Source: Eubacteriales bacterium (GTDB lineage Bacteria > Bacillota > Clostridia > Lachnospirales > Lachnospiraceae). Taken from it: a DNA stretch of 53,952 bases. Below, in pieces: positions 370 to 14,515 of the stretch (positions are counted from its first letter, which is position 1; each line of letters begins with the position of its first letter). The stretch spans positions 1 through 53,952 of the forward strand of contig JAUNHC010000037.1 in assembly GCA_030524175.1 (NCBI GenBank), given 5' to 3'. The notes under the pieces are model-generated. The model was not told the origin of the DNA. It saw only the letters and a list, made by a program, of their open reading frames with translations, and searched no databases. A program made the translations under genes and the position numbers.

Positions 370-1044
370 TTATTTCATATCATTGATACACTTCAAAAAC
401 GCTTTTAACGAACCGATAATGACATCTCCCATAACGGCCATATCCTCAGCCTGGAAGGAAACAGGAAAATTATCGGAAAACAGGATCTGGGATGAGGGCG
501 GAAATTCTTCATCGCCTTCCCACAGTATCATCTGGATTTTATATCCCGGATAAATTTCCGTCTCATAAGCAGCATCTCCGTGATTTACCGGAAGAGCCTT
601 CATATGCTCCATGATCGCCTTGAAATCGGAAAGACGGTTTCCATAGGAAAATGCCAGCCGCTTAATGCATCTTCCGTCAAATTGACGCAGATAAACTTCC
701 CCCCAGGGCATTTCTCTGTAAGTTTTAAACTTACCGGTGCCCTCTGAAGCTGCTCCATGAAGCAGAAAACGGATGGTGAGGATTTTTGCATAAATCATCT
801 CTTCCAACGGATAATAGCCCTTGTCATCTTCAAGATGGGTCACCTGGAAATCCGGATAAGTGATCTGATATACCGTTCCCAGAAATGTAAGGGTAAAAGC
901 CTTCTTCTCCTCATCATAGGGAATGGAAAGCCTTCCGGCAATCTCCCCTGGGTCGGCAGCCTTATACTGCTCAGTATAGTGCTCCCAGGGCATCCTCTCT
1001 TTGCTGTCCTTTTCATAATTCAATTCATTCAAGTTAAAAGCCAT
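370..1044 (-). CDS. DUF3786-type protein of the acs locus, function unknown
   Basis: This is a 224-residue soluble protein with no signal peptide or membrane segment. I chose ATG 1044 (MAFNLNELNYE) because GAGGTG precedes it at 4 nt; the longer open frame starts further upstream without a better ribosome site. The pattern of a central FLGTVYQITYPDF stretch followed by HGAASEGTGKFKTYREMPWG resembles DUF3786 proteins, which I know to occur near corrinoid and CODH/ACS genes in acetogens. It sits 37 nt after acsV and before fhs in the same orientation. A role in corrinoid or cofactor handling is inference from position only; no catalytic residues are recognised. Confidence 0.75.
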   Translation of the reverse strand: MAFNLNELNYEKDSKERMPWEHYTEQYKAADPGEIAGRLSIPYDEEKKAFTLTFLGTVYQITYPDFQVTHLEDDKGYYPLEEMIYAKILTIRFLLHGAASEGTGKFKTYREMPWGEVYLRQFDGRCIKRLAFSYGNRLSDFKAIMEHMKALPVNHGDAAYETEIYPGYKIQMILWEGDEEFPPSSQILFSDNFPVSFQAEDMAVMGDVIIGSLKAFLKCINDMK

Positions 1045-1081
1045 GTGCCACCTCAATCTATTGAACAACACTGATGTGCTG

Positions 1082-3019
1082 TTAGTTTTTTACCTGTTCC
1101 ATCACAGACGGGAACATTCCGAGATCTGTATGGGGAATGAAACATGCCCCTACAAATTCATCCATATAGTTGGGAACTGTTGAAAGCTCCAGATATGTCA
1201 TATTGGATGCCAGATCATAGGTCTTCTTCTCTGCCGGTGTGGAGAGAAGCATCAAGTATGCACCTGTAAGTGACGAATTGCCGATATAATGGAATTTCTC
1301 CAGTGAGATATCAGGGAACATTCCAATATTTACAGCATTTTTCATATTGATTCCGCTTCCGATACCGCCTGCCACATAAACATTGTCTATCATAGAGATA
1401 TCGAAATCCACAGAACTGAGCATAGTACGGATTGCTGAGAAAATTGCACCCTTGGCACGGATAAAGTTGTCAATATCCACCTCGGTGATCTCCACATCCT
1501 TCACAGAACCGGCCTCTTCCTCAAAAGCCAGCACATAACTTCCCATACCGTATTCATCGTGACGGATCCTCTTGCCCTCTCGGATAAATTTACCCTTAGG
1601 ACTGATAATACCATTGATATATAATTCACTTATAAGGTCAATGATACCTGAGCCGCACAACCCGATAGGCTTAGTACCAGGCTCACCGATCACCTTGTAG
1701 ACCGGCTCCATAGTGTCTTTATCGATGGTGCATTCCTCAATAGCCCCATCGGTAGCGCGCATTCCGCAGGAAATGTCGCCGCCTTCAAAGGCAGGTCCTG
1801 CAGAGCAGGCACAGCTCATCATAAAATCTGAATTGCCGAAAACTAATTCCCCGTTGGTCCCCAGATCAATAAACAGAGAAAACTCCGGTTTGTTCCACAT
1901 CATGCTGACCAAAGTTCCGGCTGTGATATCACCGCCTACATAGCTTCCGATATTAGGAGCCATAATAATATGGGCATCCTGATTAATATCAATTCCCACA
2001 TCTGAGGCAAAGAGAGAATTGGTTTTAAAGAATGCAGGAATATAAGGCTCCATACGTAAGGGATCTGCATTGATTCCTGCAAACAGATGATTCATCGTTG
2101 TATTTCCGGCCACACACATTCTGTATATCTGGCTTTTGGGGATATTTGCACTTTTGCACATCTCCTTGATCATAGGATTGATCGTCTCGGAAATCACTGC
2201 TTCCTGAAGCTTCTTTCTTCCGCCCGGCTTCTGTGACTCAATAATCCTGTTGATAACATCTGCCCCGAAACGGATCTGACCGTTTCCTGCAGAACCCTTA
2301 GCCAGAATCTGACCGTTCTCCATATTTATAAGTACTGCTGATACCGTAGTGGTACCTATATCTACTGCCAGACCTCCGATAACAATATTCTCATCTATGC
2401 CGAAAACGTCATAGACAAACATATCATCTGAAGTAGTACGCAGCACACATTTCACTGAAAAATTATTATTCCGGAGCACATCTGGAAGCTTTCTCAGCAC
2501 TGTATAAGGAATCCTTACCCGTTTTAGATTCAAGAACTTTCTCAGTGCGCGGGACAGCCGCTCATTGTCCGGCATAGTGTCATCCAGAGTAGGAGGATCC
2601 ATAGTAACCTCCACCACATCCAGACTGTTGCTCAATTGTATACCCGTGAGTTCAATCTCACTCTTGGCATTCTCGAAAATGGCTATTTCCTCTTTGGAGC
2701 TTAAATCTGCAACCTTCATCCTGCTCTTATACGCTGATGCAATATCAGGTACAAGCACAGTCACGTCCGCACTGACCGTACTGACACAAGCCAGGCGCCA
2801 GCCCTGGTCAAATTCCTCATCTGAGATATGAAGGGTCTTCTTTGTATTTAATTCTCCGCTCTTCAGCTGCACCCGGCACTTTCCGCAGGAAGCATTGCCG
2901 GAGCATGGAGCGTCAATAGCCACATTGGCCTCACGTGCAATTTCCAGCAGATTGTCTCCCAAGTTGGCATACGTCTCTACCACACTGCCATCTTCGAATG
3001 CAAATGTTACCTTGAACAT
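1082..3019 (-). CDS. acsV: corrinoid activation protein, RACo type (AcsV)
   Basis: This 645-residue protein has an N-terminal 2Fe-2S ferredoxin domain with Cys39, Cys45, Cys48 and Cys78. A linker follows, then an ASKHA-type ATPase domain (GLAVDIGTTTVSAVLI near residue 220; FIDLGTNGE further on). Proteins of this layout reductively reactivate the Co(II) form of the corrinoid iron-sulfur protein at the cost of ATP. ATG 3019 is chosen because AAAGGTGG lies 6 nt upstream; the TTG two codons earlier is too close to that site. It follows the acsE terminator, so it may be expressed at a different level from the acs structural genes. Confidence 0.93.
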   Translation of the reverse strand: MFKVTFAFEDGSVVETYANLGDNLLEIAREANVAIDAPCSGNASCGKCRVQLKSGELNTKKTLHISDEEFDQGWRLACVSTVSADVTVLVPDIASAYKSRMKVADLSSKEEIAIFENAKSEIELTGIQLSNSLDVVEVTMDPPTLDDTMPDNERLSRALRKFLNLKRVRIPYTVLRKLPDVLRNNNFSVKCVLRTTSDDMFVYDVFGIDENIVIGGLAVDIGTTTVSAVLINMENGQILAKGSAGNGQIRFGADVINRIIESQKPGGRKKLQEAVISETINPMIKEMCKSANIPKSQIYRMCVAGNTTMNHLFAGINADPLRMEPYIPAFFKTNSLFASDVGIDINQDAHIIMAPNIGSYVGGDITAGTLVSMMWNKPEFSLFIDLGTNGELVFGNSDFMMSCACSAGPAFEGGDISCGMRATDGAIEECTIDKDTMEPVYKVIGEPGTKPIGLCGSGIIDLISELYINGIISPKGKFIREGKRIRHDEYGMGSYVLAFEEEAGSVKDVEITEVDIDNFIRAKGAIFSAIRTMLSSVDFDISMIDNVYVAGGIGSGINMKNAVNIGMFPDISLEKFHYIGNSSLTGAYLMLLSTPAEKKTYDLASNMTYLELSTVPNYMDEFVGACFIPHTDLGMFPSVMEQVKN

Positions 3020-3108
3020 CGGCAACCACCTTTCTCATAGCCTGTCAATATTTATTTTCTTAGAAACAAAGTAGACAAAATATAATAAATTAAGTCTCCT
3101 GTATTTTG

Positions 3109-3174: not shown

Positions 3175-3960
3175 TTAGATCTCCAGGTAGGAATCTGCGT
3201 ACAGAGTGTTGTTCTTGAATACATCACAGGATTTGATCGTCTCCATAAGTCTTAAATCACAAGGATTTACGATTGCGGAGGTGAGGCCCTGCATCATGCA
3301 CATTGCCACTAAAGCGGAATCCATGATCGGACGGATATGTTTCGGCATACCGTTGCTGTTGTTAGAAAGGCCGCCGGTTGAGTTCAGGCCCATGTCGGAG
3401 AACATTTTGATTGCTTCCAGTACTTCCAGCTGTTTGTCCTGCATTCCCTTTACAACGAGGAATAACGGGTCAAACCACAGATCTGTCGGCTCCATACCAA
3501 GCATCATACCTCTTTCCAGCATGTTCTGGCAGTGCATCATACGTTCATCGTTGTCTGCTGCAATACCTTCTGCGGAGCAGAGTGCAATAACAATTGCATC
3601 ATTAGCTGCTGCAAGGTCGATATTCTCGATTCTTCCGCCTGCATCAGCAGAGTTTACGATCGGTTTGCCTTTTGCTCTGTTATATACAGAAATACCAGCT
3701 TCGATTGCTTTCTTGTTAGCGGTATCCAGTGCCAGAGGAACATTGTCAAAGTTTTCCTGAAGAAGCTTAACTGCCCATTTCATCAGGTCTTCGCCGTCGT
3801 TTTCAGCAGGTCCGATATTTACATCAAGATAAGTTGCACCTGCCTCTAACTGCTCCTTCGCTCTCTTTAAGATCGGCTCAGGATTTCTTGTTGCCATTGC
3901 ATCACGAATGGCTGGTGAAATACAGTGGATTCTTTCCCCAATAGTTACAAATTTTGCCAT
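3175..3960 (-). CDS. acsE: 5-methyltetrahydrofolate:corrinoid iron-sulfur protein methyltransferase
   Basis: This 261-residue protein is the normal length for AcsE. It is a TIM-barrel pterin-binding methyltransferase that moves the methyl group of methyl-THF to Co(I) of the AcsCD corrinoid protein. Visible family features are the opening FVTIGERIHCISPAI, the pterin-site DVNIGPAEND and the GLSNNSNGMP loop with the catalytic-type Asn. AAAGGAG precedes the ATG. It is the last gene of the run acsB-acsB-acsD-acsC-acsE and is followed by a hairpin. Confidence 0.97.
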   Translation of the reverse strand: MAKFVTIGERIHCISPAIRDAMATRNPEPILKRAKEQLEAGATYLDVNIGPAENDGEDLMKWAVKLLQENFDNVPLALDTANKKAIEAGISVYNRAKGKPIVNSADAGGRIENIDLAAANDAIVIALCSAEGIAADNDERMMHCQNMLERGMMLGMEPTDLWFDPLFLVVKGMQDKQLEVLEAIKMFSDMGLNSTGGLSNNSNGMPKHIRPIMDSALVAMCMMQGLTSAIVNPCDLRLMETIKSCDVFKNNTLYADSYLEI

Positions 3961-4041: not shown

Positions 4042-5382
4042 TTACATATCTTTTAAGAATTTCACAAGCTGTACAGCTTCTCTCGGTCCTACGATAACTT
4101 CCCATCCCGGAAGCTTGGACTCAATATCACCCTTCAGCACTGCAACTTTTCCAGGGATCACAAGTTTTCTGCAGGAAACCTTCGGCTCAACCTGTTCCTG
4201 GATAAACTTGGCAATACTGCTTCCTGAGAATTTACCTGCTGCCCAGGATGTCAGAACAGATAATCCGCCTGCATCACAGATAGCAAGATTCAGCGGAACA
4301 CCTGAGCGCTCCAATTCTCCGGATACCACGAAATATGTAAGAGCGAAGTCTACGGTAACAAGTACCAGAGAATCTTCCACACCGCCGTTGATCGGGTAGA
4401 TGCCCGGCTCAACCTTCATCGGCTTCTGAGGATCAGTGAATACGTTCTGACGCAGTCCGTATAACGGAAGAGCTTCAGCGTATGTCATCTGCTCCATAAC
4501 AATGATGGAACCATATTTCATAGTGAACAGGGAAGCAAGAGCTGCCTGTAAATGTTTGTCACCTTTTGCAACCTTCACAGTATTAACGATAGACGGATAA
4601 CCGAAGGTTCTGTCCTGATCCTTTAATGCTGCACGGCGCACCTGTACTGCATTTGCGAAAGTAGCTTTGATATCGCCGCCAGTCACATCCAGCACAAGGT
4701 TCTTGTTGCCAAGCTTCTCAAGAGCTGCAACTGTGTCATATAATTCATTTAAGTCTTTTCCGGATACACCAAGAACAACACCTGCTGCAGTTGCAACAGC
4801 GCTCATAGCTTCATAATTGGAAGCGTCAGCTCCGTTCAAGACTGGTTTGCTGTCTTTGCATACTTCAATGGCAGCTTTTGCAATTTCAGGATCAGAGCAT
4901 CCTAAAACCAGAGTTCTGCCTAAACCTGCTGCTTTTTTCACAAGCTCTGTGTATTTAGCAGCATCAGCTCCTTCTCCGCAGTTAACGTATACAAGTTCTG
5001 CATACATTCTCTCACCAATACGTTCGTAGTCAACTGCCGGGATTTCTGCTAATTTAGCATCAACAGCAGCATCGTCCATATCTGTACACAGTGCAACTGC
5101 GTATCTTGTTTTGCTCACAAAAGTTTTCTCATGTCTGAATAATACGGTCTCGCCGCCCAGAGTAAACTCTTCTGCGCCTGCACCGATCTTGATCGTTTTC
5201 ATGGGCGGTGCGGTAGCTTCTGACAGAGAAGCCAGCGCTTCTTCAGACATATGAGGACAAGCAGAAATGTCCATAGCGCCCTGTGCAACTTTCATTGAGA
5301 AAGCCATACATGTGGGGCAGCCGCATTCCTTACAGTTTTTCTTTGGTGTTAATTTAAAGATCTGAATACCATTCAGTGCCAT
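4042..5382 (-). CDS. acsC: corrinoid iron-sulfur protein large subunit
   Basis: This 446-residue protein carries an N-terminal 4Fe-4S module (Cys17, Cys20, Cys25, Cys42) followed by a TIM barrel and a C-terminal corrinoid-binding region. With AcsD it forms the CoFeSP that carries the methyl group from AcsE to acetyl-CoA synthase. Length and domain order match the family. The ribosome site AGGAGG lies shortly before ATG 5382. The acsD stop is only 20 nt upstream, indicating translational linkage of the two subunits. Confidence 0.97.
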   Translation of the reverse strand: MALNGIQIFKLTPKKNCKECGCPTCMAFSMKVAQGAMDISACPHMSEEALASLSEATAPPMKTIKIGAGAEEFTLGGETVLFRHEKTFVSKTRYAVALCTDMDDAAVDAKLAEIPAVDYERIGERMYAELVYVNCGEGADAAKYTELVKKAAGLGRTLVLGCSDPEIAKAAIEVCKDSKPVLNGADASNYEAMSAVATAAGVVLGVSGKDLNELYDTVAALEKLGNKNLVLDVTGGDIKATFANAVQVRRAALKDQDRTFGYPSIVNTVKVAKGDKHLQAALASLFTMKYGSIIVMEQMTYAEALPLYGLRQNVFTDPQKPMKVEPGIYPINGGVEDSLVLVTVDFALTYFVVSGELERSGVPLNLAICDAGGLSVLTSWAAGKFSGSSIAKFIQEQVEPKVSCRKLVIPGKVAVLKGDIESKLPGWEVIVGPREAVQLVKFLKDM

Positions 5383-5402: not shown

Positions 5403-6344
5403 TTACACAAGTGCTTTGATCATTTTTGAAATAGTTGCAACAGACTGAGGATGTCTTAAGATAACTGCATCAGATCCTGCTGCCAGGTCTGCTGCTGCGG
5501 TAACGATTTCCATATCGATCCCACGTTCATCCTGCGGTCCCCATTCCGGCATGTCGGCTTCAGAAGCCATAGCCTCTTTAACGCCCCATGTCTCAGAAGC
5601 AACTGGTGTAATGATAGGCATCTGCAGCATGTTATCATTCTGGGATAAAGCTGCACCTTTGATACGGTCCATTGTGGATACTACATACTCATATCCATAT
5701 CCAACTGCTGCACTTCCGATATTCATAACGATCTTCTGTGCGTTTACACCTAACTGGCTGGTAACAACATTCAACTGCTTTGCAAGGTTGATATCTACAG
5801 CGGACTCAGCGCCTACGATCTGATTGTAAGCAAGCCCTGCTGCTGCGCCGATTGCTTTGTAGTTCTCTTCTTTTTCAGACATGATAAGAACATTTCTTCC
5901 CTGAAGAACCTCTGCAACCTTTGGAAGCAGCTCTGCGTCCTTCTCAACATTCTTACATCCTTCAACAACCAGCGGGCAGTCTACTGCGTCTGCAACCTCT
6001 TTTACAACTGCGATCAACTCTTCCACAGATTTGTCAGCTCCGTTCGGGTCTCCGCCTTCCAGAACAAGGGCAAGGAAATCTGCACCTTCCATAGCTGCTG
6101 CCTTCTTGGCGATATCTGCCATTGTAACAGCACCTTCATAATAAGCCTTGATACCTTCAGATGCGCCCTCAAGGCCCATATCAGAAATTTCCACACCTAC
6201 CTTAGGTGAGTTTTCTGATTCAGAATCAAAGGTGTAGAACGGGAAAGATGAGTCTCCGCCAAGGGTGACTGTCTTATCTCCGCTTCCGATTGTGACTGTG
6301 TTAATCTTTGCATTAAACTTTTGTGGTTTCTGATTAAACGGCAT
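5403..6344 (-). CDS. acsD: corrinoid iron-sulfur protein small subunit
   Basis: This 313-residue protein has the usual AcsD length. It is a TIM-barrel subunit that pairs with AcsC and shields the corrinoid. It begins MPFNQKPQKFNAKINTVTIG and includes the conserved GGDSSFPFYTFD segment of the family. AAGGAGG precedes the ATG. It is placed between the downstream acsB copy and acsC, so the genes for methyl delivery and acetyl synthesis are contiguous. Confidence 0.96.
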   Translation of the reverse strand: MPFNQKPQKFNAKINTVTIGSGDKTVTLGGDSSFPFYTFDSESENSPKVGVEISDMGLEGASEGIKAYYEGAVTMADIAKKAAAMEGADFLALVLEGGDPNGADKSVEELIAVVKEVADAVDCPLVVEGCKNVEKDAELLPKVAEVLQGRNVLIMSEKEENYKAIGAAAGLAYNQIVGAESAVDINLAKQLNVVTSQLGVNAQKIVMNIGSAAVGYGYEYVVSTMDRIKGAALSQNDNMLQMPIITPVASETWGVKEAMASEADMPEWGPQDERGIDMEIVTAAADLAAGSDAVILRHPQSVATISKMIKALV

Positions 6345-6421: not shown

Positions 6422-8548
6422 CTACATCATTGGTTCCATTGACAAGGCAGGATGGTTATGTTCTGTCAAAAATGCAACAAGGGTTTCCGGGTCGGAGGCC
6501 ACTGTTTCGTCGCCCACCATATCGGTGAAATTGTCGATTCCGTAAAGCTCTTTTGCAGTCTTGTTCAGACGCTCTGCCACTGTCTCTTTCAGTTCTTTCG
6601 GCATCCATACGATACGCTGGATTCCGCCTTCTGCCTTCATGAATTTCTTAGATGCGATGAAATGCTTTCCATGGCCCATAAAGCCCGGCGTCTGCACACC
6701 GCCTCCGGTCATGGATGCCATCTCCGGGAAGGTCATCCCAAGAGGAGTCATACCGCCGTATTCACGGTTGGCGATCACAACACCATTGGAGAACGGTTCG
6801 ATTCCACAGATACATTCAAAGCATCCGCAGGAGGTCATGGGATCCTGCATGATGGAGTACAGAGTTACATGTTCCAGGGCTCCCTGGGAATATTTCTGTA
6901 CTGCTTCATCCACATCCTCGTATGCTCCGATCTCCTCATCAACAGGACGCTCTTTTGTGATGATCTGGCATGGTCCTGCCGGGTCAAGCTCATTTGTTGC
7001 CTTGGCGTCCAGCCATGACACTGCACCGCAAAGCCCCAGTCTCTCCGGAGTTACCACACATACATGGGAGGGTGAAAATGCCTGGCAGAGAATACAGCTG
7101 TAATAAACATCCACAGATTCATCCGTTAATGTTTCAAGACGTGCATCTCTCTTATCGAAGGCCGGAATTGCAAGCTCATGGCGGATTTTTGTACATTCTG
7201 CCGGCTCCGTATAAATCTTCACCTGGCATTTATCCACCACTGCCTCAAATTCATTCTTCACCTGTGCATACAGCACCTCGCCGATGTGTCTGGCCCGAAA
7301 GCCTGCATCATAGGCATCTTTGCTGATACGGATACGTAACATATCCCTCTGGCCTGTATGGTATACACCTTCAATACAGTTGATATAATTGTGGAATTTA
7401 CGCTCGATTACCGGTTCAAAATCGGACTGCATCTTCTTGCCTGCCACTTCTACCACGTAGGCAATACTCTGCTTGCTGCCGATTTCAAAGGCATCGATAT
7501 CAGGACCGATCAATTCTATCTTGTGGTCCTCAACTTCCTCCATGGGTCTGGTCTGCACCAGCTCGGCACAGTCAACTCTGGAACCGTCGAACTCTACCTG
7601 CATGTCAGGGCGCCGGATGATCTCTCCCTCAAAAGCCGAGGCAAAAGCCACCGGAATATCAATATTCTTAATCTTGATCTTGATATTTCTTGCTTCCAGA
7701 GAAACCTTATTGAAATTCTCCACTTCCGGGCACGGGATCAGTGCTCCCGGAACTTCCGCAATATTCTCCGTCTCGTTGGAGATTACCGGGAACCCCAGCT
7801 TGATCGCCCCTGCACCAGCTGCCAGGATCACATCGTCCACCGGCTTGAATGCATTGACAAAGGCCGGAACCCTCTCTGCCGTATAGGTGATCAGACTTCC
7901 TGCATCTCCTGGCGTTACATTTCCGAAAATAAGAGCTGCGCGCAGTGCTACTGATACTACATGGATGACAGAGGTGACATCTTTGCCCAGAGGTACGATC
8001 CTAAGATTGTATCCCATCTTAAGCCCAAGCTCCTGAGCCTGGTCGATGATTCCGCCCACCAGTGTTACCAGAATACCCTGGGCCTGATAACTCTTGATCA
8101 GGTCCACACCCTCCTTTGAGGTGGGTGCGGAACCAAGAATAACAGCAACTCCCGGGATATCTCCTGTAACAAGAGGCACTCCCATTTCACGGATAATAGA
8201 ATCCGCTAAATGGCCATAGCACGGCTCTTCATAAGGCAGTGCACCGTCCAGATATTTCAGCGCTTCGATAAATTCCGCGCACAGGGCAGTCGCTACGCCG
8301 GACATAAGAGCATCGTCCAATGCATGTTCCCTTGTCATAAGGGTCTTTACAACGCCCAGCGCCTCCTTCAGTTCACCTAATGTCTTTACCTTTACACCTG
8401 TTACGGCATAATAGCAGGGCAGACAGTACGCAGTATTTGGAAATCCCACAGCTTTATCTGACCCGTACTGCACAACCGCATTGTCTACTGCCTGTACTGT
8501 CAGTCCGTACACTGCATCATTTCCGCTGAAAATTCTGTTGATCAACAT
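6422..8548 (-). CDS. acsB: acetyl-CoA synthase, downstream copy
   Basis: This 708-residue protein joins CO, CoA and the methyl group of CoFeSP to acetyl-CoA. All A-cluster ligands are present: Cys485, Cys488, Cys497 and Cys507 hold the 4Fe-4S cluster, and the Cys574-Gly575-Cys576 motif binds the distal nickel. The family signatures MTSCGCFE and TGGGVQTPGFMG are intact, so the copy looks functional. Compared with the adjacent upstream copy it is almost identical over the last 400 or so residues but only about half identical over the first 280, which cover the CODH-facing domain. GGAG lies about 11 nt before ATG 8548. Confidence 0.96.
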   Translation of the reverse strand: MLINRIFSGNDAVYGLTVQAVDNAVVQYGSDKAVGFPNTAYCLPCYYAVTGVKVKTLGELKEALGVVKTLMTREHALDDALMSGVATALCAEFIEALKYLDGALPYEEPCYGHLADSIIREMGVPLVTGDIPGVAVILGSAPTSKEGVDLIKSYQAQGILVTLVGGIIDQAQELGLKMGYNLRIVPLGKDVTSVIHVVSVALRAALIFGNVTPGDAGSLITYTAERVPAFVNAFKPVDDVILAAGAGAIKLGFPVISNETENIAEVPGALIPCPEVENFNKVSLEARNIKIKIKNIDIPVAFASAFEGEIIRRPDMQVEFDGSRVDCAELVQTRPMEEVEDHKIELIGPDIDAFEIGSKQSIAYVVEVAGKKMQSDFEPVIERKFHNYINCIEGVYHTGQRDMLRIRISKDAYDAGFRARHIGEVLYAQVKNEFEAVVDKCQVKIYTEPAECTKIRHELAIPAFDKRDARLETLTDESVDVYYSCILCQAFSPSHVCVVTPERLGLCGAVSWLDAKATNELDPAGPCQIITKERPVDEEIGAYEDVDEAVQKYSQGALEHVTLYSIMQDPMTSCGCFECICGIEPFSNGVVIANREYGGMTPLGMTFPEMASMTGGGVQTPGFMGHGKHFIASKKFMKAEGGIQRIVWMPKELKETVAERLNKTAKELYGIDNFTDMVGDETVASDPETLVAFLTEHNHPALSMEPMM

Positions 8549-8574
8549 TGCTGAACATCTCCTTTGGATTTTTC

Positions 8575-10704
8575 TTACATCATCGGTTCAAGGCTTAATG
8601 CCGGGTGTCCTTTTTCTGTAAGGAAAGCTACCAGTGTCTCAGGATCTTCTGCAACAGTTTCGTCGCCGATCAGATCTGTGAAATTGTCAATTCCGTAAAG
8701 TTCTTTTGCCGTAGCATTCAGTCTGTCTGCCACAAATTCTTTTAATTCTTTCGGCATCCATACGATACGCTCGATACCGCCTTCTGCCTTCATGAATTTC
8801 TTAGATGCAATGAAATGTTTTCCATGGCCCATGAAGCCCGGAGTCTGCACACCGCCGCCGGTCATGGATGCCATTTCCGGGAAGGTCATTCCGAGAGGTG
8901 TCATGCCTGCATACTCACGGTTTGCAATAACTACACCGTTTGAGAACGGCTCGATACCACAGATACACTCAAAACATCCGCAGGAGGTCATAGGATCCTG
9001 CATGATAGAGTACAGAGTAACATGCTCCAGAGCACCCTGGGAGTATTTCTGTACTGCTTCATCAACGTCTTCGTATGCACCTACGTTCTCGTCGATCACT
9101 CTCTCTTTTGTGATAGTCTGGCAAGGTCCGTTCGGATCAAGCTGATGGGTTGCCTTTGCGTCCAGCCATGAAACAGCACCGCAAAGTCCAAGTCTCTCCG
9201 GAGTTACCACACATACGTGTGACGGTGAGAATGCCTGGCAGAGGATACAGCTGTAATATACATCCACTGACTCATCCGTAAGAGTTGCAAGACGGTCATC
9301 ACGTTTGTTGAATGTAGGAATAGCAACCTCATGACGGATTTTTGTACAGTCTTCCGGATTTGTATAGATGATAACCTCACATTTATCAACAACTGCTTCG
9401 AACTCATTCTTAACCTGGCTGTAAAGCACTTCGCCGATATGTTTCAGACGGAATCCAGCATTGAATGCATCAATGCTGATACGGATACGCTGCATATCTC
9501 TCTGTCCTGTATGGTATACACCCTCGATACAGTTAATATAGTTATGGAATTTACGCTCGATTACAGGCTCGAAATCAGGCTGCATGTTCTTGCCGGCTAC
9601 CTTTACAACATAAGCAATGCTGTTCTTGCTGCCAAGCTCCATACCGTCCACATCCGGTCCGATAACTGTGATCTTGTGATCCTCGATCTCGGTCATCTCT
9701 GCAGTCTGTACCAGCTCGGCACAGTCTACGCGGGAACCGTCGAATTCCACCTGCATGTCTTTACGGCGGATGATCTCACCTTCAAATGCAGATGCAAAAG
9801 CAACCGGAATATCAATATTTGTAATTTTAATCTTAATGTCGCGGGCCTCAAGGGAGGTAGCATTAAACTCTTCCACCTTCGGCTGCTTGATCAAGCTCTT
9901 CGGTACGGACGGTGTGTAGTCCATATCGTTTGTAACTACAGGGAAACCATAATAAATAGCTCCTGCACCGCAGGCAACTGTCTTCTCATCCAGAGGTCCG
10001 AATGCATTAACGAATGCACGGAATCTGTTGAAGGTATACTCCTGAAGAGCTGCTTTGTCTCCTGGTGTGATATTTCCGAAAATCATAGCTGTTCTGCAGG
10101 CAGCAGATACGGCATGGCATACGGAAGAAATATTCTCTCCGATAGGGAATACACGTACATTAAAGCCTGTCTTGTAATTTGCTTCTTTCAGCTGTTCGAT
10201 GATTCCGCCAACCAGACATACGAAATTACCCTGTGACTGATAGCTCTTTACAAGTGCACATGCCTCTTCCACTGTAGGAGCAGCATTGATGATAACTGCG
10301 ATTCCGGGGATATCTCCGGTTACAAGCGGTACACCAAGCTCACGGATCTGAGCATCTGTCATATGGCCAAGATACGGCTCATCATATGGCTGCTGTCCGT
10401 CAATATATTTCATAGCTTCGATCAACTCTGCTGATAATGCAGTTGCAACACCTGAGTTGAATGCTGAATCAAGACGACGTTCTCTTTTCATAATAGTCTT
10501 GATATATGTAAGGGCTTCCTTAGCTTCCTTCAGAGTGGTGATCTTTGTACCGGTCTCTGCGTAGTAGCAAGCCAGGGTATATGCGGTATCCGGAAAGCCT
10601 ACTGCTTTGTCTTCGCCATATTTGGCAACGGCATCGTTTACAGCTTGCTCTGCTTCCGCATACATGGTATCATTTCCGTTAAATACGATATCAAATAAAA
10701 GCAC
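8575..10704 (-). CDS. acsB: acetyl-CoA synthase, upstream copy
   Basis: This is the second intact acetyl-CoA synthase, 709 residues from the GTG at 10704. An ATG exists at 10710 but only 1 nt separates it from AGGAGG, whereas the GTG has 7 nt spacing. Starting there also aligns the N terminus (MLLFDIVFNGND) with the downstream copy (MLINRIFSGND). A-cluster ligands are Cys486, Cys489, Cys498 and Cys508 plus Cys575-Gly576-Cys577. It follows the nearer CooC ATPase by about 30 nt and precedes the other acsB by 26 nt. It arose by tandem duplication; which copy is the main enzyme cannot be told from sequence. Confidence 0.95.
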   Translation of the reverse strand: MLLFDIVFNGNDTMYAEAEQAVNDAVAKYGEDKAVGFPDTAYTLACYYAETGTKITTLKEAKEALTYIKTIMKRERRLDSAFNSGVATALSAELIEAMKYIDGQQPYDEPYLGHMTDAQIRELGVPLVTGDIPGIAVIINAAPTVEEACALVKSYQSQGNFVCLVGGIIEQLKEANYKTGFNVRVFPIGENISSVCHAVSAACRTAMIFGNITPGDKAALQEYTFNRFRAFVNAFGPLDEKTVACGAGAIYYGFPVVTNDMDYTPSVPKSLIKQPKVEEFNATSLEARDIKIKITNIDIPVAFASAFEGEIIRRKDMQVEFDGSRVDCAELVQTAEMTEIEDHKITVIGPDVDGMELGSKNSIAYVVKVAGKNMQPDFEPVIERKFHNYINCIEGVYHTGQRDMQRIRISIDAFNAGFRLKHIGEVLYSQVKNEFEAVVDKCEVIIYTNPEDCTKIRHEVAIPTFNKRDDRLATLTDESVDVYYSCILCQAFSPSHVCVVTPERLGLCGAVSWLDAKATHQLDPNGPCQTITKERVIDENVGAYEDVDEAVQKYSQGALEHVTLYSIMQDPMTSCGCFECICGIEPFSNGVVIANREYAGMTPLGMTFPEMASMTGGGVQTPGFMGHGKHFIASKKFMKAEGGIERIVWMPKELKEFVADRLNATAKELYGIDNFTDLIGDETVAEDPETLVAFLTEKGHPALSLEPMM

Positions 10705-10734
10705 TGTCATACCTCCTAATTTACAGATCTTTTT

Positions 10735-11499
10735 TTAATCCTGATCTATCTTCTCTTTGATTTTCCTAATCTCAGCAGTGACTGTCCCGCTGAAATCATA
10801 AGGTGATTTACCTTGGCGGTCGGCATCAATAACCTCTGTATTGTAATGAATCATCCCAAGCAGATCCTCAGCCGGAATCTTAGCTTTTATAAACTCTTCG
10901 TCATCCTCATTGCGGACTTTATTGGCCACAACCTTTACCTGGGAAACTCCCAGGTCTTTTGCAAGACGTTTTACATTTCGATAGGTCTGAACACTTCTGG
11001 CTCCCGGTTCAATGACCACCACAAACGCATCCATGCTCTCTGTGGTCCCACGTCCGAGATGCTCAAGTCCTGCCTCCATGTCAAGGATAACAACATCATC
11101 CCTGTGAAGTACAAGATTATTGATAATACGCTTAAGCATTACGTGTTCCGGGCAGACACATCCGCCTCCGCCTGTCTCCACGGTACCCAGGACTAAAAGC
11201 CTTACGCCGTTGCAGACCTTCCCGTAGGTATCAGGGATATCATCCACCTTTGGGTTCAGTTTATAAAATTGATTCTCGCTGTTGGCTCCGGTACGCTCCG
11301 CTACCAGTTTACGCATTCTGGATACGGGCACAATGGCATCCAGCGTCTCCTCGTCAAACCCAAGAGCAAGCCCAAGGTTTGCATCCGGGTCCACATCCGC
11401 TGCCAGGACCTTCCTTCCTTCGTCTGCATACAATCTGGCAAGTGTTGCCGCAAATGTTGTCTTTCCTACTCCGCCTTTACCGGTTACTGCTATCTTCAT
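10735..11499 (-). CDS. cooC: CooC/AcsF-type nickel-insertion ATPase (copy next to acsB)
   Basis: This 254-residue MinD-type P-loop ATPase starts MKIAVTGKGGVGKTT, a deviant Walker A with the signature lysine. A CxC pair in GGGGCVCPEHVM is the nickel-binding dimer-interface motif of CooC. Such proteins load nickel into CODH or, in the AcsF subgroup, into acetyl-CoA synthase. It lies between cooS and the two acsB genes, so a role with either target is plausible. The ribosome site before the ATG is weak (AAAGG at long spacing). Confidence 0.9.
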   Translation of the reverse strand: MKIAVTGKGGVGKTTFAATLARLYADEGRKVLAADVDPDANLGLALGFDEETLDAIVPVSRMRKLVAERTGANSENQFYKLNPKVDDIPDTYGKVCNGVRLLVLGTVETGGGGCVCPEHVMLKRIINNLVLHRDDVVILDMEAGLEHLGRGTTESMDAFVVVIEPGARSVQTYRNVKRLAKDLGVSQVKVVANKVRNEDDEEFIKAKIPAEDLLGMIHYNTEVIDADRQGKSPYDFSGTVTAEIRKIKEKIDQD

Positions 11500-11592: not shown

Positions 11593-13485
11593 TCAGATAC
11601 CTAATGCAGCTCTCTTTTCTTCGATTCTCTCGATCATTAAATCGCCTAATTTATCAATGTCCTTTTCAACAGTGTAGCAAGCCTCTACCCAGTCTGTCAG
11701 GCCGCCCTTTAACAGGCCGTCAACTTCACTGGATCCATAAGCATAAGGTTCAACGCCAAGGTAGGTGTCAATACCGGTTCCTACAACGTAGTTTCCGATG
11801 GAAACAGCCTTCTCTGACATCCACTCAGGAGCACATCCTACAAGCGGGATCTGAGAAATATTCCATCCGGAATCTTTTGCGATTCTGGAAGCAAGGACCA
11901 TCATACGGCTGATGTCTACACAGGAGCCCATATGTAATACAGGAGGAATGTCTGCAAGTTCGCACACACGCTTCAGTCCGGCACCGCAGAGATCTTTCGC
12001 TCTCTTGTCCATCAGGCCTGCTTTTGCAGCTGCCTGGGCAGAACATCCGGAAACAACCATGAGCACATCGTTTGCAATGAGTTTCTTCATCAGTTCAATA
12101 TGTGCTGCGTCAGGACGGATCTTCGGGTTGTTGCAGCCAACCATGGCTACTGCACCGCGGAGAACACCGGATTTGATACAATCAATTACCGGAAGCATAG
12201 TGCCTGTCACGTCAACGTGTGAATTGGTTACACCATCCAGTTTCTTTTCAATCTGCTCTACAGAGAAGCCTACAACTGCTTTCTGTTTCAGTTGAGGTAT
12301 GTATACCAGGTCTTTATTTCTGTTCTTAAAGTTCTCGATCGCTGTCTTAACGATCATTTTTGCATTTTCACCGGCTGTCTTAGCGTTGAATCTGATGAAA
12401 TCAGAGTCAGGCATCTGAGCGATCGGTGATGTGGTGATGAATTTTGTGTGGAAGCATTTGCTCAAAGGCCCTAATGCCGGGAAAATACACTGTACGTCAA
12501 CAACGATTGCCTCACAGGCACCGGTGAGTACAACATTCTCCTGCTGCAGGAAGTTTCCGGCCATAGGAATTCCGCGGCGCATTGCAACTTCATTGGAAGT
12601 ACAGCAGACACCGGATACGGTGATGCCCTGTGCACCCATGGATTTAGCATAATCGATCATTTCCTTGGAATCGGCATACTCACAGATCATCTCGGAAAGA
12701 GACGGGTCATGTCCGTGAACTACGATATTAACATTTTCTTCTACCATAACGCCAAGGTTAGCTTCTGTCTCTACTTCTCTCGGAGTTCCGAAAAGAACGT
12801 CTGAGAACTCAGTACCCATCATGGAACCGCCCCATCCATCACAAAGACCTGAACGCAATGCCTGACGGATCAAAGCCTCCGGCTTGGAGGAACATCCCAT
12901 ATGTGTCATATGAAGGGAACATGAAACCTCACGGTCAATAGCACGTGGACGGATTTCTTCTCTGTCCCAGATTTCCTGTGTGTGCTCCGGAGCACGTTTT
13001 GTAAAGGTCAAGGTTCCGAAAGGTTTGCCGTATTCCATCAAACCTACTTCTGCCACCTCATGGGCAACATCATAAATGTCTCTGCCTTCTGTCTCAACAC
13101 CGAACTCTGCTGCCAGACGAAGTAATTTCTCAGGATCTTTCACCTTGTAGTTTCCGTCTGCTGCTGACTCGTAAAGTGTGTGGGCAATCTCACGTCCATG
13201 ATCGGAATGGGTTGCTGAACCGCCTGCTGTAAAGCGAAGGTAGTTTCTTCCAACGATACCATGTACGTCACATCCGCAGATACCTTTTGGTGCTTTCGGG
13301 GTGATACGGCACGGACCCATGGAACAGATACGGCAGCATACACCGGATTCACCAAATTTACAGTGTGGAGTCTGGTTTTTTACTCGAACCTGCCAGGCAT
13401 CGGCGCCAACTTTAGCACCTGTCTCTAATAACCGGTTAGTGGCAGCTTCAAATTCTTCCACTGTAGTCAATTTGAATTCACTCAT
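11593..13485 (-). CDS. cooS: anaerobic CO dehydrogenase catalytic subunit
   Basis: This 630-residue Ni-Fe CODH reduces CO2 to CO, the carbonyl carbon for acetyl-CoA synthase. The N terminus carries the D- and B-cluster cysteines (Cys42, Cys50, Cys51, Cys54, Cys59, then Cys70/Cys72). The C-cluster region includes the His of VVHGHDPSLSE (residues 255-265) and later conserved cysteines (GVCCTS, MVGCNN, VSGCSAQ, MGSCVD). AGGAGG lies 6 nt before ATG 13485. It is also called acsA when paired with acsB, as here. It precedes one CooC gene and follows another, with a structured 208-nt gap upstream. Confidence 0.97.
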   Translation of the reverse strand: MSEFKLTTVEEFEAATNRLLETGAKVGADAWQVRVKNQTPHCKFGESGVCCRICSMGPCRITPKAPKGICGCDVHGIVGRNYLRFTAGGSATHSDHGREIAHTLYESAADGNYKVKDPEKLLRLAAEFGVETEGRDIYDVAHEVAEVGLMEYGKPFGTLTFTKRAPEHTQEIWDREEIRPRAIDREVSCSLHMTHMGCSSKPEALIRQALRSGLCDGWGGSMMGTEFSDVLFGTPREVETEANLGVMVEENVNIVVHGHDPSLSEMICEYADSKEMIDYAKSMGAQGITVSGVCCTSNEVAMRRGIPMAGNFLQQENVVLTGACEAIVVDVQCIFPALGPLSKCFHTKFITTSPIAQMPDSDFIRFNAKTAGENAKMIVKTAIENFKNRNKDLVYIPQLKQKAVVGFSVEQIEKKLDGVTNSHVDVTGTMLPVIDCIKSGVLRGAVAMVGCNNPKIRPDAAHIELMKKLIANDVLMVVSGCSAQAAAKAGLMDKRAKDLCGAGLKRVCELADIPPVLHMGSCVDISRMMVLASRIAKDSGWNISQIPLVGCAPEWMSEKAVSIGNYVVGTGIDTYLGVEPYAYGSSEVDGLLKGGLTDWVEACYTVEKDIDKLGDLMIERIEEKRAALGI

Positions 13486-13693: not shown

Positions 13694-14464
13694 TTATAGA
13701 TCGAGCTTGTCTGCAATTGCCTTCAGGGCTGCCTTGACAGGATTATCCTCCGGCAAAGACGCCGTTGGGCGCCCCTGGCAGTCATACTCATATACCATCT
13801 CATCCTGGGGAACCACGCCTAAAAGGTTCAGTCCCTGGATCTGGATTTCTTCTTTAATGCCATCGTTTAACTCTCCCTTAGGAGCACGGTTAATGATCAG
13901 TCCCACAGTTCTTGGTTTCATATCGCATTCCTCGATCAGTTTGGCAATACGGCCTACGGCCTGTACGCCTCTGCGGGAGCAGTCGCTCACCAGAATGGCT
14001 GTCTGCATGGTCGGAAGAACTCCTCTGCTGATATGCTCCATGCCCGCCTCATTATCCACCACAAAATAAGGATAGTTATTCTGATATTTAGTAAGCTGGG
14101 ACTGCAGCAATCCGTTTACAAAGCAATAGCAGCCCTTCCCTTGTGTCCTTCCCATTACAAGCAAGTCAAAATCTTTATCTTCAGTCAAAGCGTCCTCAAA
14201 ACGGATTTCTGCGTAATCAGCCTTGGACATTCCCAAAGGAATGGGATTATCCTTTGACATCTCCGCCCGGGCAATCTCCTCACGGACATCGCCAAGGGTA
14301 GTCTCAACCTTAACACCCAGAACCTCGTTCAGATTAGAGTTGGCATCAGCGTCCACAGCAAGAACCGGTCCCTTCCCCTGATCACAGAGGTACTGGATCA
14401 GCATCCCGCAGAGCGTGGTCTTTCCAACACCGCCTTTTCCTGCAACAGCAATTACATGCGCCAT
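13694..14464 (-). CDS. cooC: CooC-type nickel-insertion ATPase (copy next to cooT)
   Basis: This 256-residue P-loop ATPase starts MAHVIAVAGKGGVGKTTLCG. It has the deviant Walker A and a CxC motif (GKGCYCFVNG), as expected for a CODH nickel chaperone. I chose ATG 14464; AGGAGG lies 11 nt upstream and the in-frame GTG at 14476 is too close to it. It is a clear paralogue of the CooC next to acsB, not a recent copy. Proximity to cooT and the His-rich gene suggests this is the one serving CO dehydrogenase. Confidence 0.9.
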   Translation of the reverse strand: MAHVIAVAGKGGVGKTTLCGMLIQYLCDQGKGPVLAVDADANSNLNEVLGVKVETTLGDVREEIARAEMSKDNPIPLGMSKADYAEIRFEDALTEDKDFDLLVMGRTQGKGCYCFVNGLLQSQLTKYQNNYPYFVVDNEAGMEHISRGVLPTMQTAILVSDCSRRGVQAVGRIAKLIEECDMKPRTVGLIINRAPKGELNDGIKEEIQIQGLNLLGVVPQDEMVYEYDCQGRPTASLPEDNPVKAALKAIADKLDL

Positions 14465-14515
14465 ATAACGTGGCACCTCCTTAGAATTATTGAAATATCC
14501 GTTAAATCTTCCTGC

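Follow-up and report, generated by a model that had tools for sequence, protein, structure and literature searches.

Gut Lachnospiraceae with two genes for acetyl-CoA synthase (ACS), acsB, in one acsA-acsB-acsD-acsC-acsE cluster have been described before: a second acsB was reported for TWA4, in which the copies are 63% identical, and for B. hydrogenotrophica and R. obeum (PMC4275979, 2014). In another family, the Eubacteriaceae strains ES2 and ES3 carry an additional acsB within the carbonyl-branch cluster or close to it (PMC10625859, 2023). Paired acsB genes are thus already published (PMC4275979; PMC10625859). The sections of the 2014 report used here handle the copies as whole genes, with no half-gene history, link to carbon monoxide dehydrogenase (CODH) or role for the second copy, and those of the 2023 report call the duplication a possible adaptive trait and do not analyse the halves. 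Here we consider such a pair on a 53,952-nucleotide contig of a Lachnospiraceae bacterium (assembly GCA_030524175.1, contig JAUNHC010000037.1, positions 1 to 53,952; this whole stretch is termed the window). Our comparisons indicate that the catalytic half of these genes behaves like a pool shared within the genome, and the CODH-facing domain like a cassette matched to the CODH gene, acsA, in the upstream copy only.

The closest solved relative of both ACS copies and of the CODH is the Clostridium autoethanogenum class-2 CODH/ACS (chains of 6ytt), a member of the same ACS/CODH family in which ACS binds CODH by its A1 domain (PMC11474084). That complex is described with one ACS, whereas the operon here encodes two with different A1 types. 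An earlier note on this DNA took the Moorella enzyme for comparison, which is not the best choice, the closer C. autoethanogenum complex having a different CODH-binding surface (PMC11474084). The monomeric ACS of Carboxydothermus (1ru3; cited in PMC12289521) offers a model for possible behavior of the downstream copy, and CO can reach cluster A through solution too (PMC12289521). That monomer is, however, a form of the ordinary ACS, whereas the downstream copy has a gene and an A1 lineage of its own. Concerted evolution through partial gene conversion is known for tandem paralogues, one part being homogenized and another kept different; what distinguishes the present case is that the part kept different co-segregates with a separate partner gene. 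In the open-licence full texts searched we found no earlier report of the half-gene mosaic or of the CODH link. By title, and among the matches listed, no paper dealt with gene conversion in acetyl-CoA synthase genes, and none except PMC10625859 with acsB pairs under acetyl-CoA synthase gene duplication; PMC4275979 was the sole paper found on a second acsB copy in Blautia. The co-segregation of the upstream A1 domain with acsA is new here.

The pair lies in a Wood-Ljungdahl operon on the minus strand, in the order cooC-like gene, acsA, cooC, acsB-U, acsB-D, acsD, acsC, acsE, acsV and a DUF3786 gene. We refer to the upstream and downstream acsB copies as U and D. As the earlier note had claimed, both are intact and separated by 26 nt; they are uninterrupted open reading frames scoring 1028 (U) and 1052 (D) bits against NCBIfam CODH_ACS_al_bet (NF040764; curated cut-off 800), with the Pfam domains A1 (CODH_A_N), CdhC and ACS_CODH_B_C matched in both alike. 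The span assigned to the pair, 6422-10704, is right at the D end and falls short at the start of U, 10704 being a start codon two codons inside a gene that reaches 10710. Both copies contain the motifs YYSCILCQAF, HVCVVTPERLGLCGA, TSCGCFEC, IRE.GVPLVTGD and IFGN, which cover the A-cluster cysteines, the gating helix and the A1 alcove phenylalanine (roles assigned by alignment and from papers). The identities judged by eye in the note also hold on measurement: the N-terminal 280 or so residues, said to be about half identical, are 57% identical (residues 1-285); the last 400 or so, said to differ at one position in nine, differ at about one in eight (88% identity, residues 286-711); and the A-cluster segment, said to be nearly identical, reaches 94% (residues 491-650).

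Two halves with different histories

Half-gene comparisons drew on a set of named loci (L numbers; genomes have G numbers) from which only open reading frames of at least 550 amino acids were taken, the short copies L001-L031 being excluded from identity, tree and later analyses. Identities were compared over 110 rows after 13 duplicates had been dropped, the first tree used 101 rows after nine more had been dropped, and the half-gene trees and approximately unbiased (AU) tests used 55 chosen rows. Residues 1-285 group by gene copy and residues 290-711 largely by taxon. The N-terminal half (residues 1-285) of Lachnospiraceae ACS falls in the trees into mainly three types: A, to which most pairs contribute their upstream copy and which also takes in four single copies (L037, L038, L039, L128); B, the downstream copies; and S, most single copies along with the upstream acsB of B. 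wexlerae and B. glucerasea. Types A and B each join Blautia with other genera (starred supports of 99 and 100 in two trees). For residues 290-711 all three kinds of Blautia copy, U, D and S, fall together (support 94, not starred), and U and D of L086 are sisters (98, starred). The catalytic half rejects all downstream copies as one clade (AU p 0.0011; 0.0017 on repetition) and all A-type copies as one clade (1.7e-5), the log-likelihood gaps for these constrained topologies being 124 and 214. The N-terminal half, tested under a simpler model, rejects a single Blautia clade (1.6e-44), a Blautia upstream A+S clade (1.9e-72) and the sisterhood of U and D in L086 (2.7e-36) and L083 (1.7e-7), where the very small p values are to be taken as rough.

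The change of history can be placed along the gene. The identity between paralogues minus that between orthologues, in stretches of 30 residues, runs from -0.08 to -0.45 in every stretch through 271-300, is -0.01 at 286-315, and lies between +0.01 and +0.16 in every stretch from 301-330 onward. Since the alignment of PDB entry 3git, a shortened Moorella ACS, begins at U residue 293, this switch at about 285-300 puts the break at the end of the CODH-binding A1 domain. Nor is the N-terminal half simply fast-evolving, because same-type copies from different genera remain 0.73-0.87 alike there (0.81-0.86 in the catalytic half); in the same comparison U and D of the window are 0.56 alike in the N-terminal and 0.88 in the catalytic half. 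An A1 construct from C. autoethanogenum (6yua) scores 338 bits against an S copy (L045), 327 against D and 298 against U, which, being lowest for U, marks type A as the more divergent type. These comparisons show two old lineages of A1 domain in U and D, with catalytic halves that have been homogenized within lineages, and acsB trees built on the catalytic half can accordingly mislead on copy type.

Silent sites bear on the age of this homogenization. The proportion of synonymous differences (pS) between U and D in this genome is 0.77 for residues 1-285, 0.71 for 286-490, 0.49 for 491-650 and 0.76 for 651-711; for the same copies against their partners in other Blautia the means are 0.77, 0.74, 0.66 and 0.80. 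The divergence is thus not uniform, the point on which the earlier note had rested its check for conversion, but only 491-650 stands out. A base-sharing test, with Blautia schinkii as the reference and restricted to codons with an identical amino acid in all four genes, gives the same picture: D shares the base of U rather than that of B. schinkii D at 34:20 codons in 491-650; the ratios are 17:34 for 286-490 and 9:21 for 651-711, and residues 1-285, at 40:39, are undecided (491-650 against 286-490, Fisher 0.003; against all other segments together, 0.007). When U and D were permuted among genomes, p was 0/20000 for the N-terminal half, 2/20000 for 286-490, 0/20000 for 491-650 and 637/20000 for 651-711. 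Because pairs share codon use, making even the N-terminal permutation significant, that half was taken as the silent-site baseline; over it, 12 Blautia pairs have an excess of shared codons in 491-650 (Wilcoxon p 0.02; p 0.38 for 286-490), the strongest pair being L034 (pS 0.26 in 491-650). We reject recent conversion across the whole catalytic half, silent sites being near saturation outside 491-650. The homogenization is mostly older than silent sites reveal, patches near the A-cluster being younger; within this genome a younger, modest signal of probable conversion is confined to 491-650.

CODH and the upstream and downstream A1 domains

The A1 type of the upstream copy is mirrored in acsA. 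Relative to the acsA of the window, identity is 90-94% at A-type and 76-83% at S-type Blautia loci. Three blocks of acsA (Table 1) track type, residues ~241-300 track genus and the remainder differs little; both cooC-like genes are genus-following or neutral along their full length. We counted as type-tracking those sites at which A copies in Blautia agree with A copies outside Blautia and differ from S copies in Blautia. There are 33 such sites among the 630 of acsA and 30 among the 711 of U (29 of them before residue 281), with none in cooC (254) or cooC2 (260) and two each in acsD (313) and acsC (446). Genus-tracking sites number 6 in acsA, 28 in U (24 after residue 280), 9 in cooC, 5 in cooC2, 27 in acsD and 31 in acsC. 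Trees of acsA and cooC from 53 chosen loci are consistent with these counts: in the former the 14 A-type Blautia group with L086, L040 and L083 (98, starred) and a single Blautia clade is rejected (7.9e-7); in the latter a single A-type clade is rejected (0.004).

Sites defined within Blautia (50 in the N-terminal half, 21 in acsA) also give scores that correlate in 50 other loci (rho 0.81; 0.79 in a rerun), a held-out set in which some loci nearly duplicate training loci (L112, L115) or one another. The control genes cooC, acsD, acsC, cooC2 and acsE have no Blautia-defined type site at the 90% level; at the 70% level cooC and acsE again have none, and acsD, acsC and cooC2 have 7, 6 and 1, without correlation. 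The catalytic half, as a further control, offers 1 to 3 sites and a weak correlation (0.25, 0.40). The surface by which the C. autoethanogenum CODH binds A1 consists of helix alphaA with the loop preceding it, at the start of Rossmann fold 2 (PMC11474084); as read from sequence, the acsA type sites 434-442, 460 and 469 fall near the start of that fold. We conclude from these sequence patterns that the upstream A1 type, A or S, co-segregates with acsA type in Blautia and its relatives, skipping the intervening cooC.

The downstream copy behaves otherwise. When Blautia genomes are divided by the type of their upstream copy, A or S, the N-terminal half of U has 61 fixed differences between the two groups (11 against 3 genomes), whereas that of D has none (11 against 4 genomes). 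Of the 29 type sites, 19 are S-like in the D of the window, 2 are A-like and 8 match neither type, despite the sole operon-type CODH being of type A. Relative to B. schinkii, the proportions of nonsynonymous (pN) and synonymous differences are 0.046 and 0.62 for D and 0.023 and 0.44 for U; D is under purifying selection. Codon bias is stronger in U than in D in all 13 genomes chosen for examination. D can be missing, acsB being followed directly by acsD in L037-L039; a B-type copy without an upstream partner was not seen among the loci examined except in L071, where the contig is cut.

The earlier note had offered gene conversion of the catalytic half and specialization of the copies for different partners as alternatives. 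Homogenization of the catalytic half within lineages is supported by the conflicting half-gene trees and the sign change in identity, as a mostly old process with, in this genome, a younger silent signal confined to 491-650; specialization is supported for U, whose N-terminal type follows the operon CODH, and not for D, whose N-terminal domain has no fixed difference between the CODH backgrounds. Each is therefore partly supported, and they are not alternatives.

Distribution and genomic context

Paired copies recur in other genomes. Among 116 genomes searched, acsB was found in 46, all of them among the 64 listed as the same genus, and 16 of these 46 carry two full acsB genes next to each other on a single contig (the source genome is included in these genus and pair counts); one further pair, in G016, is split by contig ends. 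Assemblies of one contig (G001, G038) are among those with a pair, as is Blautia schinkii DSM 10518 (L080), so that an assembly artefact, a possibility raised in the earlier note, is unlikely. Further pairs are present in Lactonifactor longoviformis (L083), the Lachnospiraceae loci L040, L064, L085, L086 and L087, and Clostridia bacterium L098. An order-wide draw of 392 genomes gave an acsB match in 20 and tandem pairs in 4, one of them (G118) outside the genus; the loci of this draw (L131-L154, with the G118 pair) were kept out of the trees. Gene order around the pairs is conserved as far as the contigs extend.

Some related loci are built differently. Extra loci consisting of acsA and acsB, with the rest of the cluster missing, were found at L053, L056, L058, L081, L088, L118 and L119; in G009, G044 and G047 such a two-gene locus is S-like (L056, L118, L119) and accompanies an operon with A-type acsA and A1 and a tandem pair. 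A distant acsB that stands alone in a draft genome (L116:5151-7346) is 56-61% identical to the copies of the window. On its 13.5 kb contig in that draft bin neither CODH nor cooC gave a match, and its neighbors are genes for homocysteine methyltransferase, ApbE and flavin reductase. One tree places it, long-branched, with the B side, and its N-terminal half is 80% identical to that of the downstream copy of L098.

The source genome is that of a Blautia-related gut acetogen (5.95 Mb in 119 contigs, 90.7% complete), the closest named relative found being B. schinkii DSM 10518 (U 96%, D 92%). A whole-genome search found no third acsB and a single operon-type acsA. A distant second CODH, 30% identical to acsA, is encoded at G000:C52:143084-144868, and similar distant CODHs (30-35%) are present in 7 others among 21 genomes searched. 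The features of the operon are listed in Table 1. The name cooC is our presumption from gene position; the profile matches of this gene are to ParA/MinD-like ATPases only, all below cut-off. The acsE gene is 95% identical to that of several genomes beyond the close relatives, but 78-89% identical to that of many Blautia, and may have been exchanged too. The DUF3786 gene closes the operon in most loci that reach that far. Scans for promoters and terminators gave 17 promoter-like (12.5 expected) and 14 terminator-like (7.0 expected) matches and were not used as evidence.

Table 1. Positions of the acsB copies, their parts and the neighboring operon genes in the window
Feature	Position	Strand	Basis
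acsB-U, upstream acetyl-CoA synthase, 711 aa	8575-10710	-	Open reading frame and profile match
acsB-U residues 1-285, A1 (CODH-facing) domain, type A	9856-10710	-	Copy-type clade in N-terminal half trees
acsB-U residues 286-711, catalytic half, taxon-wise grouping	8578-9855	-	Trees, AU tests, identities along the gene
acsB-D, downstream acetyl-CoA synthase, 708 aa	6422-8548	-	Open reading frame and profile match
acsB-D residues 1-282, A1 domain, type B	7703-8548	-	N-terminal half trees, fixed-difference count
acsB-D residues 283-708, catalytic half	6425-7702	-	Trees, AU tests, identities along the gene
A-cluster segment of U, residues 491-650, partner in the younger putative conversion signal	8761-9240	-	Silent sites
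A-cluster segment of D, aligned to U 491-650	6608-7087	-	Silent sites
acsA, CODH type A; blocks ~141-220, 401-480 and 521-620 track acsB-U A1 type	11593-13485	-	
cooC-like ATPase gene (cooC), between acsA and acsB-U; genus-following, zero type-tracking sites	10735-11499	-	
Second cooC-like ATPase gene (cooC2), upstream of acsA	13694-14476	-	
acsD	5403-6344	-	Profile match
acsC, labelled ACDS subunit gamma	4042-5382	-	Profile match
acsE, methyltransferase	3175-3960	-	Profile match
acsV, corrinoid activation protein	1082-3025	-	Profile match
DUF3786 protein gene, operon end	370-1071	-	Pfam match

Possible roles of the two copies

The reading towards which we lean is that the operon encodes an old pair of ACS isoforms, of which U would be matched to the CODH and D would be a secondary ACS not tuned to it. 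Because A1 and acsA are co-inherited, U would be the channel-coupled ACS, a subunit matched to CODH and supplied with CO through the protein channel; selection would preserve the interface match between its A1 domain and acsA while recombination shuffles the remainder. D would have the same catalytic half with an A1 domain untuned to this CODH and, being indifferent to CODH type, would most likely be a secondary ACS, produced at a lower level and either loosely CODH-bound or free, taking CO from solution; perhaps, then, it uses free CO. We are more hesitant about a stronger form, in which the homogenized catalytic half would be shared by two dedicated isoforms, one channel-coupled and locked to CODH, the other uncoupled from CODH and capturing free CO or CO from other sources.

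Several observations weigh against our preferred interpretation. The groups for the AU tests were named after the first tree had been viewed. The loci are related, and the site-score correlations include no correction for ancestry. A whole-protein similarity score, computed over 53 loci with acsA, cooC and acsD after duplicates were dropped, gave 0.92 for acsA, but also 0.72 for cooC and 0.87 for the catalytic half; since it correlates with these as well, it was replaced by the site-based test with controls. The match has exceptions: L064 and L085 combine an A-type A1 domain with an acsA on the S side, the two-gene locus L081 has an A-like acsA with an S-like A1, and L087 is mixed. The acsA type sites 163-176 and 535-594 lie, as read from sequence, away from the published class-2 interface. 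Finally, zero fixed differences in D are not unusual, random splits of D averaging 0.6, and may merely reflect a tolerant D interface.

Such tolerance is part of the strongest rival, dosage with mixed complexes, in which ACS limits flux and both copies serve the same CODH dimers, mixed complexes included, with the N-terminal domain of D drifting within what the interface allows. We consider this a possible account, although not the probable one. It fits the adjacency of the genes in one operon order, the retention of catalytic and A1 motifs in both copies, the single operon-type acsA of the genome and the statement that CO binding is rate limiting for ACS (PMC11321310). Identical copies would suffice for dosage, yet two A1 lineages persist across genera, and the differences in U that accompany CODH background, together with the weaker codon bias of D throughout the genomes examined, speak against it. 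Alternatively, no matched interface is needed if acsA and the N-terminal half of acsB arrived jointly from A-type donors in chance tracts that have stayed unbroken since. Exchange in the operon does look common, acsE having two identity levels that do not follow genus, and the match is broken or blurred at the four exceptional loci named above. However, the cooC gene between the matched blocks has no type-tracking site, against 33 and 30 in the genes flanking it, the matched blocks inside acsA alternate with genus-following ones, and three genomes with an A/A operon have a further, separate acsA-acsB locus whose two genes are both S-like (L056, L118, L119); we judge neutral recombination of this kind unlikely.

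Two further accounts dispense with gene conversion. In one, which we regard as quite improbable, selection drives the catalytic halves in parallel to fit the corrinoid protein of the host and the CoA side, so that they converge within a genus. The genus-following of acsD and acsC, like that of the catalytic half, and the want of a silent-site excess over the N-terminal control in 286-490 (p 0.38) speak for it, but very many parallel changes would be needed given the log-likelihood gaps of 124 and 214, and 491-650 does have a silent-site signal. In the other, which has next to no plausibility, there was no recombination and the catalytic half is merely the more constrained. Residues 491-650 are indeed highly conserved in every comparison, and A-type copies of different genera are less alike in the N-terminal (0.73-0.80) than in the catalytic half (0.81-0.86). 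Constraint cannot, however, make paralogues of one genome exceed cross-genus orthologues in the catalytic half and yet fall below them in the N-terminal half, nor can it yield the rejected topologies; the AU tests and the sign change at 285-300 refute it in its pure form.

In the usual picture a closed CO channel links ACS to CODH. That a common genus of the gut retains a second ACS with a CODH-facing domain that does not vary with CODH type makes the idea of an uncoupled ACS in acetogens testable, a question relevant to gas fermentation and to how CO is used in the gut. The operon also amounts to a natural domain-swap experiment, in which A1 and parts of CODH move as a pair and the intervening gene does not, and which predicts interface residues. 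If the reading with two dedicated isoforms is true, a single operon would encode two routes from CO to acetyl-CoA, one closed and the other open, and sequence alone would reveal the CODH:ACS interface through those acsA blocks that co-segregate with A1.

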